Positions 20,142-42,659 of a DNA stretch of 42,659 bases are shown here, piece after piece. Location: assembly GCF_008245225.1 (NCBI RefSeq), contig NZ_VTAW01000030.1, positions 1 to 42,659 on the forward strand, read 5' to 3'. The notes beneath the pieces are model-generated. The model did not search any database and was not told where the DNA came from. It was given only the letters and a program-made list of their open reading frames with translations. Source of the DNA: Natrialba swarupiae. GTDB taxonomy: Archaea > Halobacteriota > Halobacteria > Halobacteriales > Natrialbaceae. Position numbers and translations under genes: made by a program. Positions within the stretch are counted from its first letter, which is position 1. The number at the start of each line of letters is the position of its first letter.

Positions 20142-20174
20142 ATCGTCCGCCGGAGGCCGGTACAACCCTTTTCA

Positions 20175-20253
20175 TACGGTTTACTGTCAGTCGGTACCGC
20201 CGAACCCGCGACCAGTCTGCGGGTTCGCCGGTAGATCGTGACAGCAATTCGTA
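20175..20253. repeat. Family I MITE-like element, copy A (79 bp)
   Basis: Ends TACGGTTTACTGTC and GACAGCAATTCGTA are imperfect inverted repeats, flanked by direct TCA/TCA (20172-20174 and 20254-20256). The centre is a perfect hairpin, CGAACCCGC / GCGGGTTCG around GACCAGTCT. It sits between the convergent S14-like gene and the hydrolase gene, whose TGA stop is the right-hand target copy. Family copies also lie at 35170-35241 and 42337-42415. Confidence 0.88.
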
Positions 20254-20805
20254 TCACTCGACCAGCCGCTCGGCATTCGCGGCGACGGCCTTTCGCGCAA
20301 GTGCGTAGCCGATCGAGACGACGAGCATTCCGACGACGACCGTTCGGACGAACCCGTCGAAGACGAAAAGCGCCGGGAGCGCGAGCACCGACGCCAGTGC
20401 GAGATCGCCCGGCGAGCCGTCGTAGCCGATCCACCGGCGGGGCTCGAGCCACCGATCGTGGTAGTGGCTGTAGACGGCTCGAGGGGACTCACCCTCCCAG
20501 GGGCGTAACTCGTGGCCGCCGCCGAGGGCGTCCGAGACGGAGTGGGCGGCCGCTGCGAGGAGGAAGACGGCGACCGCGACCGTCACCCCGGACGGAGCAG
20601 CGAGCGCCAGCGCCACCGCGGGAACGACGAGTGCCGCATAGTAGACCGGAAAGTGGAGCGTCTTCCGGTGGGACGCGGCCACGTCGAGGTCCGGAAAGAG
20701 CCCCCCGAGAATCGCGGCGACTCCCGCCTCGAGTGCGAATGCGGGTTCGACGACTGCGACGGCCGCGGCGACGAGAAGGCCCACGAAGACGTGGGTCGTG
20801 GCCAT
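20254..20805 (-). CDS. YdjM/DUF457-type membrane metal-dependent hydrolase
   Basis: 183 residues from the ATG at 20805 (a second ATG at 20808; an upstream frame to 20835 is less likely). Helical membrane protein: MATTHVFVGLLVAAAVAVVE, ILGGLFPDLDVAASHRKTLH, a helix pair, AAHSVSDALGGG and AVYSHYHDRW. The conserved His at TTH, Asp pair PDLD, HRKTLHFP and HSVSDALGGG are hallmarks of the YdjM family, proposed to be membrane-bound metal hydrolases. The substrate is unknown. Its stop codon is supplied by, or coincides with, the target duplication of the MITE-like element. Confidence 0.82.
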   Translation of the reverse strand: MATTHVFVGLLVAAAVAVVEPAFALEAGVAAILGGLFPDLDVAASHRKTLHFPVYYAALVVPAVALALAAPSGVTVAVAVFLLAAAAHSVSDALGGGHELRPWEGESPRAVYSHYHDRWLEPRRWIGYDGSPGDLALASVLALPALFVFDGFVRTVVVGMLVVSIGYALARKAVAANAERLVE

Positions 20806-40834: not shown

Positions 40835-42079
40835 TTGACTTCGCACCTTATGCTGATAGAGCGCGTAGAGACAGCGTTGAACGCTGATGTTCCCCGTTAC
40901 GTCGTTCCTGTCATGTACTGAGCCAATCGACCAGTTGGAGTGTTTCTCGACGAGGCAGAAACACCACGCTAAGACCTACGTCACAGGTCTTGTTGCGGCC
41001 AGCAACAAGACCGTCCAAGGGATTTCGAACTACGTTCTACCGGCCAAAAGTGAGCGCGCCCTGAACAAGTTCCTCACCGAGTATAACTGGGACGAAGACC
41101 AGCTCAACAAAGAACGTCTCGCGCTTCTCCAACAGATGAACGACACGAAGTGGAGCAGTGACGGTGTCGTCATCATTGACGACACCTTCACGCACAAAAC
41201 CGGCGAGAATATCCCGAACGCCGGAAAATTCTACGACCACACGATTCGTGGCTATATCTGGGGCCAGAATCTGGTTTATGCACTCTACGCCGACGAGAAA
41301 ACCACCTATCCACTCGGCTTTCGTCTCTACGAAAAGGACGCACAGCGGCGGGTTGAGTTGGCTATTGAACTCGTCGACGAACTCATCGAGATAGGTGTCC
41401 GCCGGGACACCTATCTCTTCGACATGAGCTACTGTTCCCAGGAGTTCGTCACTCACCTCGAAACCTACGGCAAAGAGTGGTTTTCAGCCGTCAAAAGCGA
41501 CGCACGTGTCTTGTACGGTGGTGAACGAATCCGGGTCGATGCGCTGGCCGAGCGCATCGACACCGTTCCACGGACGATCGACGGCGAAACCTACCACATC
41601 TGGACGCAAAAACGCGACGTGAGCCGTCTTGGTGAGGTGAAACTCCTGATTACGACGAAAAAAGCTAGCGACGAGGATGACGAACTGAGCGTGAAGTACA
41701 TCGTCTCGAACAAAATCGACGCGCCAGCGAGCCATCTCATCGCGTTGTACGCGATGCGATGGCGTGTGGAGACGTTCTTCAGGGACACCAAGCAGGATCT
41801 CGGTTTTGGAGACTGCGAGCTCCGGCATGCCGCAGGTGCCAGTCGCCACTGGCACCTGCTGATGCTGGCCTACAGCCTCCTCAAGCTCGGTACTGCACAC
41901 AGCGCCCTTGGAACGATTCTCGAACGAGCAACCTCGCTGCGTAACGATATCAAGCGATCCTTCCGCGAAAGTGTTGAAAACCTCCTGTCCTGGGCACTCA
42001 ACAGCCCAAACCGTAGTACCGACGAGCTAATGCACCAGATCGAAGGCATGTTCGTCTAACGTGCGAAGTCAAGTAGTTC
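40829..42079 (+). mobile_element. IS701-type insertion sequence with TAGTTC target duplication
   Basis: Element body 40835-42073 with inverted ends CTTGACTTCGCAC (left) and GTGCGAAGTCAAG (right). TAGTTC is directly repeated at 40829-40834 and 42074-42079. One transposase gene fills it (40887-42059). The exact duplication suggests a recent, intact insertion. IS701 elements usually duplicate 4 bp; six bases repeated here may include chance extension or a subgroup difference. Confidence 0.85.
40887..42059 (+). CDS. IS701-family DDE transposase
   Basis: 390 residues. Catalytic triad candidates: Asp in VVIIDDTFTHKTG, Asp in DTYLFDMSYCSQ and Glu in MRWRVETFFRDTKQDLGFGD; the YxxRW-VE-F-K pattern is typical of IS4-like/IS701 transposases. 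The N-terminus RQKHHAKTYVTGLVAASNKT, then ALNKFLTEYNWDEDQLN, is the haloarchaeal IS701 type. Base composition is lower in GC than the chromosome. The frame is intact, so the element may still be active. Confidence 0.9.
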   Translation: MFPVTSFLSCTEPIDQLECFSTRQKHHAKTYVTGLVAASNKTVQGISNYVLPAKSERALNKFLTEYNWDEDQLNKERLALLQQMNDTKWSSDGVVIIDDTFTHKTGENIPNAGKFYDHTIRGYIWGQNLVYALYADEKTTYPLGFRLYEKDAQRRVELAIELVDELIEIGVRRDTYLFDMSYCSQEFVTHLETYGKEWFSAVKSDARVLYGGERIRVDALAERIDTVPRTIDGETYHIWTQKRDVSRLGEVKLLITTKKASDEDDELSVKYIVSNKIDAPASHLIALYAMRWRVETFFRDTKQDLGFGDCELRHAAGASRHWHLLMLAYSLLKLGTAHSALGTILERATSLRNDIKRSFRESVENLLSWALNSPNRSTDELMHQIEGMFV

Positions 42080-42465
42080 AGCACCTCCTCAGCTGGTGTT
42101 CGGCCATTGAGCGCTTGGTTCGGTCGATCGTGGTTATAGTGGTGTCTGAAGCGTCTGAGCCAGCGTCTTGCACTGGCAGGACTGCCCCGCCAGAAGGAGT
42201 GAAAGCAGTCGATCGGCATTGAGACAGTTTGAAACCACTTTTCGACGTAGTTTCGGTCGGTGTCGTTGAGCTGACCGCTCAATTCGTGACGCGCGAGGGC
42301 AGTCAGATAGCCGCCAGCATCGACGAGAAACTCTGATACGGATTGCTGTAACGATTTACCGGCGAAACCGCGACCAGTCTGCGGTTTCGCCGGTGATGAC
42401 TGACAGTAAACCGTATGAGTCGTCGAGATCGTGTTTCTCGGTGAGTCGGTGTAAGAACGCCGTCC
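42080..42465 (-). pseudogene. IS6-family transposase remnant split by a MITE
   Basis: Minus-strand codons read AFLHRLTEKHDLDDS, then, after a 79-bp insert, EFLVDAGGYLTALARHELSG, VEKWFQTVSMPIDCFH and RWLRRFRHHYNHDRPNQALN, the catalytic C-terminal half of a haloarchaeal IS6 transposase. It is truncated at about 42465 where hairpin DNA begins, interrupted at Ser by the element at 42337-42415, and its stop was separated by the IS701 element. It is therefore non-functional. Confidence 0.85.
42337..42415. repeat. Family I MITE-like element, copy C (79 bp)
   Basis: Ends TACGGATTGCTGTA and GACAGTAAACCGTA, flanked by TGA/TGA (42334-42336, 42416-42418). The central hairpin is perfect, GGCGAAACCGC / GCGGTTTCGCC around GACCAGTCT, an identical loop to copy A. 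It is inserted in the IS6 transposase remnant; removing it plus one TGA restores the reading frame LDDSEFLVDAG. Confidence 0.92.
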
Positions 42466-42565
42466 TCAGAAATCAGAGATTTCTGATGGGCTGCACGAGA
42501 ACTCCGTTCTCGTGAACGCCGCGGGGTCAGTCCCGCGGCGTTGACGAGACCCATAGCGTCTCGTT
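42466..42565. repeat. Array of four consecutive perfect hairpins
   Basis: Stem 1 TCAGAAATC/GATTTCTGA (42466-42486, 3-nt loop); stem 2 CACGAGAAC/GTTCTCGTG (42494-42514, 3-nt loop); stem 3 AACGCCGCGGG/CCCGCGGCGTT (42515-42542); stem 4 ACGAGAC/GTCTCGT (42544-42564). Together they cover almost all of 100 bp. It may be the end of another mobile element, for example the 3' region of an IS200/IS605 (TnpB) element with its overlapping RNA, but no TnpB sequence is recognisable in the window. Confidence 0.8.
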
Positions 42566-42659
42566 CGCACACCAGAACGCTTGAGTGGTCAGCATAACTT
42601 TTGAATATCCGGGAGGAATGTTTTGATCCAGTTGTCGGCGAAGCTGACGCGTTTGGATA

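Follow-up and report, generated by a model that had tools for sequence, protein, structure and literature searches.

What stands at the end of this contig, and why do four hairpins follow one another there beside the remnant of an insertion sequence? The window, that is, the whole stretch of DNA analysed, is an entire contig (number 39) of 42,659 bases from the 99-contig genome (G000) of the haloarchaeon Natrialba swarupiae, and position 42659 is the contig end. All four stems reported by the first-pass annotation are present, at 42466-42474/42478-42486 (9 bp), 42494-42502/42506-42514 (9 bp), 42515-42526/42531-42542 (11-12 bp) and 42544-42550/42558-42564 (7 bp), and they are indeed far from random: as DNA, 42463-42580 folds with -38.0 kcal/mol on the plus strand and -38.7 kcal/mol on the minus strand, against means of -17.8 and -19.4 for dinucleotide shuffles (z = -7.3 and -7.5), and none of the 200 shuffles folds as well on either strand. 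That nearly every base is paired was an overstatement, as the stems hold 74 of the 99 bases of 42466-42564. Nor do the hairpins form one back-to-back array, as had been supposed; they are made up of one whole two-hairpin element, a palindrome of the host gene and a truncated element on the opposite strand.

The setting is as follows. A 390-aa DDE transposase (Pfam DDE_Tnp_1; 40887-42059) directly adjoins the C-terminal part of an IS6-family transposase gene (42074-42332, minus strand), which is identified by blastn, Pfam and uninterrupted IS6 copies elsewhere; its blastn matches, starting at query base 15, are haloarchaeal plasmid loci, several of them annotated as IS6, and an rve_3 Pfam match lies in the ORF at 41998-42282. 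Within the remnant sits an 87-bp palindromic dispersed repeat (42333-42419, strand not assigned; 39-nt arms, 77% complementary, around a 9-nt loop) that is separate from the present finding. Another match of this repeat lies at 20172-20260, and a search of this genome lists 60 matches in all, with the query among them and some copies counted once per strand. The IS6 gene resumes at 42420-42460 (minus strand), where it reads FLHRLTEKHDLDD in alignment with the uninterrupted copies and with the intact frame of one of them (L076). Then come element A, complete with 56 nt (42461-42516, minus strand; hairpin 1 at 42494-42514, hairpin 2 at 42466-42486), the GC-rich palindrome that forms the third stem (42517-42540) and element B (42541-42580, plus strand; hairpin 1 at 42544-42564), which keeps only the left arm CAGAACGC of its second hairpin (42573-42580). 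At this point begins the end of an IS630-family element (42581-42659, minus strand), inserted at the loop of that hairpin, and the contig stops inside it. The last 77 bases are 100% identical to two Natronorubrum bangense IS630 copies, and the window's SKRVSFADNWIKTFLPDIQKLC represents the C-terminal residues of the IS630 transposase (the same ORF C-terminus). Several mobile elements are piled up at this end of the contig.

The IS630 element may have a habit of its own. A homologous IS630 end on another contig of this genome (C42, 1-92) joins a further twin-hairpin copy at the equivalent place. In each of the three other copies with both flanks read (L118 2501-3600, L119, L120), the element sits in the middle of a perfect hairpin, as does its one visible end in the window (42581-42659) and at C42, and it seems to target hairpin loops; in L118, the same twin-hairpin unit is in addition interrupted within hairpin 1 by an IS630-type mini-element.

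What the hairpins are becomes evident from homologous sites in other genomes. Five IS6 copies from four related genomes (two from G016 and one each from G003, G024 and G036; L074-L078) are uninterrupted through the region, reading for example ...GGAACGCCGCCGCGGGGTCAGTCCCGCGGCGGCTGAA... in L076, where an intact frame of 235 residues containing SRRGTDPAAAFLHRLTEKHDLD runs through the site. The third hairpin is therefore minus-strand coding sequence for the IS6 residues RRGTDPAA, and its two outermost A-T pairs are supplied by the TT ends of elements A and B; the array does not join exactly where IS6 homology stops, as had been proposed. Other genomes have a single insert at the site: G002 (L079) carries only a 56-nt plus-strand insert that is the full version of element B, and Natrialbaceae archaeon AArc-T1-2 (L018) only a 55-nt minus-strand insert at the place of element A. 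Alignment with these and the empty copies shows that the window holds both. Insertion here has added the unit and nothing else, the target not being duplicated, and each unit follows GCGGCG, one on either strand, because the IS6 site is a palindrome. A and B are two opposite-strand copies of one small mobile element. Our covariance model (R1, built from 59 rows that include A, as L001, and not B) gives element A 74.4 bits (E 5.7e-20) and the truncated element B 28.2 bits (E 2.1e-6). The idea of a recombination hot spot was partly right, in that the IS6 palindrome received one element per strand and IS630 later landed in the second.

The unit has this form: behind RCG come TT, the first hairpin, a linker (mostly GCACA or AGCCCA in 59 aligned copies), the second hairpin and RGGACG, together about 56 nt (52-60) with unlike ends. 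These 59 were picked by a left-hand CG from 75 good copies, 16 without CG being excluded, and the commonest length among the 75 is 57 nt (22 copies). The two hairpins are nearly inseparable, as 260 of 268 distinct second hairpins are preceded by a hairpin and 182 of 187 first hairpins have a second one starting at most 20 nt on. Three-hairpin variants occur elsewhere in the same genome (C95:122200-122300) and at L100 and L108. Four loci of G034 (L132, L133, L137, L138) hold neighbouring tandem two-hairpin units with other stems and linkers, for example TT-CAGAAATC hairpin-AGCCC-hairpin-GGACG, and some of these end in AACG. The twin-hairpin form is probably a superfamily.

Pairing within the stems is kept almost without exception. 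Across the 59 copies, 99.4% of 966 pair cells are paired and six are unpaired, and pairing falls to 35-50% when the partners are slid by 1-3 columns as a control. Changes on both sides are seen in 12 of the 17 pairs, with 176 double-change cells as against three one-sided ones. Four of five covariation measures lie above all 500 shuffles, the shuffle taking no account of relatedness among copies, while the fifth, further pair types, shows no excess (22, shuffle mean 21.7). The sole frequent wobble is a G-T (G-U), which 16 of the 59 copies have as the outer pair of hairpin 1, always with the G on the 5' side. Since this wobble would read A-C on the other strand, it marks the TT...GACG strand as the structured one and points to a single functional strand. 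The scarcity of one-sided changes may reflect recognition of strict DNA pairing, or else the copying of one arm from the other.

The first-pass annotation had proposed searching for the array elsewhere, and the search proved productive: a pattern of hairpin 2 plus the 3' end occurs in 102 of 125 genomes of the family, over which the reversed control pattern has one match. In the genome of the window itself, R1 has 10 matches at E <= 2e-4, A and B among them. Across the phylum, 57 of 294 genomes have R1 matches, 52 of them in the order of the window (its own genome counted, the order's share of the 294 being left unspecified) and the other five weak, with a best E of 1.3e-5; as 19 candidates were scored per genome, copy numbers are lower bounds. 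A wider scan of genome contigs returned at least 119 stretches, and the 80 listed titles examined are all haloarchaeal by name; viral contigs gave no exact pattern match. Many copies in G351, G297 and G371 lie in recurrent larger repeats, and copy number is thus not all due to independent insertion. In four genomes of one genus (G351, G297, G219 and G028; L196-L209, L214-L221, L228-L231), a unit ending GATGACG is part of a larger dispersed repeat, mostly with the context ...CAAAGGGGCAG...GCAGGCG-unit-ACGYAAGCACC....

The borders of the unit are defined by where it has inserted. For 148 of 262 distinct copies, the criterion of our script identifies a homologous place without the interruption, a count that takes in some weak matches and some tandem copies paired with one another. 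In clear cases among the matches listed, the right flank follows directly after CG in the uninterrupted place, with neither duplication nor loss. On the left, 82 distinct non-tandem sites (drawn from 239 copies, 23 tandem-like ones being set aside) have C at -2 in 75, G at -1 in 80 and a purine at -3 in 64, the first two counts being inflated because the script sought CG near the stem. Units also stack head to tail (...GGACG/TT...) in G034 (three units at L133; also L134, L136 and L142), adjoining units are seen as model matches at L286, L308, L259 and L325, and at L100 one unit is nested in the linker of another. Besides the IS6 palindrome, targets include the left hairpin of ISNph5-type IS605 elements, in both orientations (L020, L095, L087), tnpB genes and the 3' part of IS605-like elements (L088). 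At 24% of the 82 sites the insertion point is spanned by a stem of at least 7, as against 7.5% of 1500 control RCG sites; this cut-off was chosen afterwards and an overall rank test over the 82 sites is not significant (p 0.26), so that a preference for palindromic targets is suggested only. The anatomy of the unit and its mobility are, in our judgement, close to certain.

Copies inside genes show a further side of the element. Of 262 copies, 39 are embedded in a stop-free frame that extends for at least 60 codons to either side, and the length is divisible by three in 21 of these 39 compared with 103 of 262 overall, a weak bias. Since the unit has one reading frame that can be open and is most often 57 nt long, it can reside in genes as an insert of 19-20 codons; the in-frame peptide is mostly of the form V-[HDR]-[EK]... 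with AHQ[KN] or NQ[KN] in the middle and an acidic end. A unit stands in frame in a TnpB of 453 aa with OrfB, TNB and HTH domains (L039) and in another of 435 aa (L091). In the L039 gene there are in fact two in-frame units, at 757-816 and 1501-1557 (60 and 57 nt), which lie in opposite orientations. For an in-frame case, an empty homolog was shown for tnpB and for a macrodomain gene; in a DUF58 protein of Halolamina salifodinae (L286), two adjacent units are in frame, with no unit-free homolog at hand. The macrodomain case (L309; Pfam Macro, 4.9e-27) comes from Halostagnicola sp. A-GB9-2: residues 83-101 of this protein are the unit, and the halves on either side of them match Thermus TTHA0132, over its residues 6-79 and 82-157. 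Homologs at E <= 1e-20 are found in 53 of 61 family genomes; judging from alignment splits and lengths, the 19 residues are missing from 51 of the 53 and present in one (G064), and the remaining one (G056) is unjudgeable. Direct reading of ten macrodomain loci with the motif found by script shows the insert in L373 (G064) and its absence from the other nine. The inserts of L309 and L373 have different stems, and both are in frame. Two further attempts in this direction were set aside: TrpB (L112) is no intact in-frame case, its TrpB homology running only from the end of the element onward, and an AlphaFold2 model of the macrodomain with its insert, made with no alignment, had a mean pLDDT of 44.9.

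How might such a unit move? We consider it probable that it is a non-autonomous mobile element with defined ends that acts as a single-stranded DNA hairpin and is mobilised in trans, perhaps by an HUH enzyme. It would move as single-stranded DNA and be recognised by its structure instead of its stem sequence, with one cut at RCG on the left and the other on the right, behind the GACG that the unit itself brings. This 3' GACG would then serve as the RCG target of the next unit, and since the end of a unit recreates the target motif, head-to-tail stacking becomes possible. A single-stranded hairpin element cut behind RCG and behind GACG is in keeping with this tandem rule, with junctions free of target duplication, with hairpins specific to one strand and with stems that vary. 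In outline, elements of the IS200/IS605 type, with their TnpA transposases, are single-strand hairpin elements that are cut in this way. Recognition of a single-stranded DNA hairpin seems to us somewhat better than an even bet. The likeliest mobiliser would be an HUH transposase resembling the IS200/IS605 TnpA, yet this is a guess with evidence against it. The Y1_Tnp domain (PF01797) is present in 10 of 13 genomes tested, and it was not found in G107, G219 and G356, which carry at least 13, at least 11 and at least 18 unit matches, respectively (insertions that could be of old date). Nor do the loci examined include an autonomous form in which a gene separates hairpin 1 from hairpin 2, and between RCG and the foot of the hairpin there is no room for the left guide that belongs to the IS608-style architecture. 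Given the three genomes without Y1_Tnp, the missing parent and the missing room for a left guide, we hold to the HUH enzyme only tentatively.

It is possible, though on balance doubtful, that the unit is instead what remains of an IS605 element whose core was deleted, so that the left and right near-terminal palindromes were fused, as in the terminal-only members of the PATE elements of Haloquadratum. In their description (Dyall-Smith et al., 2011; PMC3119063), the terminal-only elements lack target duplications and have a short terminal oligonucleotide and similar 3' ends, and the size of our unit and its missing duplication fit those of the 52-bp HqIRS46 and ISHwa23. Both are haloarchaeal, non-coding and palindromic, measure about 52-56 bp and lie sometimes in other mobile elements, and the flush junctions behind RCG, with no target duplication in clear cases, are a PATE-like trait of the unit. 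However, a deletion between direct repeats, which the two palindromes would represent by that account, should leave one palindrome, whereas the unit has two unlike hairpins, together with fixed RCG/TT...RGGACG ends, stems that vary freely with paired changes and in-frame copies in cellular genes. Moreover, no transposase-coding IS605 with the ends of the unit was met among the loci examined, and the ISNph5-type IS605 at L020 has different ends and bears the unit as an insert in its left hairpin. For a time we favoured a related idea, that element B is the left end of an ISNph5-type IS605, on account of a relative of B just before tnpA in Halorientalis pHOS300; this was dropped because the unit is an insert in the IS605 left hairpin and homologous places elsewhere lack it.

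Less likely still is that the unit belongs to the small mobile repeats of the SMR-A type, whose members (HqIRS42, 43, 55) are given in the same source as about 110 bp long with inverted terminal repeats, free of target duplications and located in near-terminal palindromes of IS605 and PATE elements, with an unknown mobiliser (Dyall-Smith et al., 2011; PMC3119063). By this account, the SMR-A form would correspond to two units standing tail to tail, which together measure about 106-111 bp and have inverted ends. Tail-to-tail pairs of matching size do occur, on C12 of the window's genome and in G010 and G020, units do sit in IS605 left hairpins, and the lack of target duplication is shared. Yet single units and head-to-tail tandems outnumber the tail-to-tail pairs seen, and single units (52-60 nt with unlike ends) have neither the length of about 110 bp nor the prominent inverted terminal repeats that the description of SMR-A gives. 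The SMR-A families are also said to share no sequence similarity with each other (PMC3119063). The Haloquadratum plasmid PL47 is without a model match, which is uninformative, and a contig of a Haloquadratum metagenome-assembled genome (L296) has one.

Very improbable, by comparison, is that the hairpins represent a structured RNA or, as the first-pass annotation suggested for this array, the omega-RNA at the 3' end of a TnpB element. Strong hairpins and the occasional position within tnpB genes speak in favour of this view, and the unit does occur in tnpB genes and IS605 ends elsewhere, as an insertion. The array of the window has an IS6 gene on its left and an IS630 end on its right, not the 3' end of a tnpB, and Rfam gives no match for the window and six other loci. 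The unit has entered unrelated genes in both orientations, empty sites (here in the IS6 gene) show that it was inserted, and one-sided (G-U) intermediates make up just 3 of the 966 cells. A chance cluster of palindromes at the IS6 edge, conceivable in that GC-rich haloarchaeal DNA is full of short palindromes and hairpin 3 alone is indeed a coding palindrome, is refuted by the shuffles, the R1 scores of both elements and the copies throughout the family.

Two other candidates were discarded. The junction of a head-to-tail transposon circle does not agree with A and B lying on opposite strands around IS6 coding sequence, and an integron attC site, with its G/TT boundary, seems at odds with a right flank that is mostly not TT and with two short hairpins per unit.

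Among known systems, our best reading places the mobile twin-hairpin unit near the haloarchaeal PATE and SMR elements in kind, while it appears to behave like the Rickettsia palindromic elements (RPEs). As summarised in a 2024 review of prokaryotic MITEs (PMC10969869), RPEs are bacterial elements of about 150 bp in ten sequence families that lie in frame in unrelated genes. Like them, the unit is small and palindromic, enters unrelated genes in frame and encodes a recognisable peptide; unlike them, as far as they are described there, it is archaeal and about 56 nt long with many copies in mobile elements or intergenic DNA, and homology is not claimed.

A second comparison is with the REP and BIME sequences with RAYT, short hairpin units, sometimes in tandem, that are thought to be moved as single-stranded DNA by a Y1 transposase. 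Hairpin units and tandems are shared with these, but the twin-hairpin unit is without a GTAG foot, has RCG/GACG as its end motif and needs two hairpins to make one unit. We found no literature joining halobacteria and RAYT. Searches by words and by sequence strings, which covered publications outside their supplements, where tables of PATEs and SMRs may list the element, found no description of a twin-hairpin element, the strings matching only unrelated papers. The suggestion of a new repeat type came close, as this is a dispersed mobile repeat for which we found no description. One may propose, albeit with less than even confidence, that haloarchaea harbour a class of mini-transposons not described so far, twin hairpins of about 56 nt that are moved as single-stranded DNA, renew their stems arm from arm and have repeatedly entered genes in frame as 19-20 residues, making them an archaeal counterpart of the RPEs. 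If one arm is copied from the other, almost no one-sided changes are expected.

If this holds true, few mobile elements with defined ends would be smaller than the unit, in which structure is conserved and stem sequence is not. Such a unit would make it possible to ask, in clean tests, by what means hairpin DNA is recognised and the two arms of a palindrome stay matched. The in-frame copies in the macrodomain and DUF58 proteins may be regarded as natural experiments on the tolerance of proteins towards a foreign insert of 19-20 residues. For the annotation of haloarchaeal genomes, it would mean that the unit need no longer be misread as the end of an IS605 element or as part of a protein.
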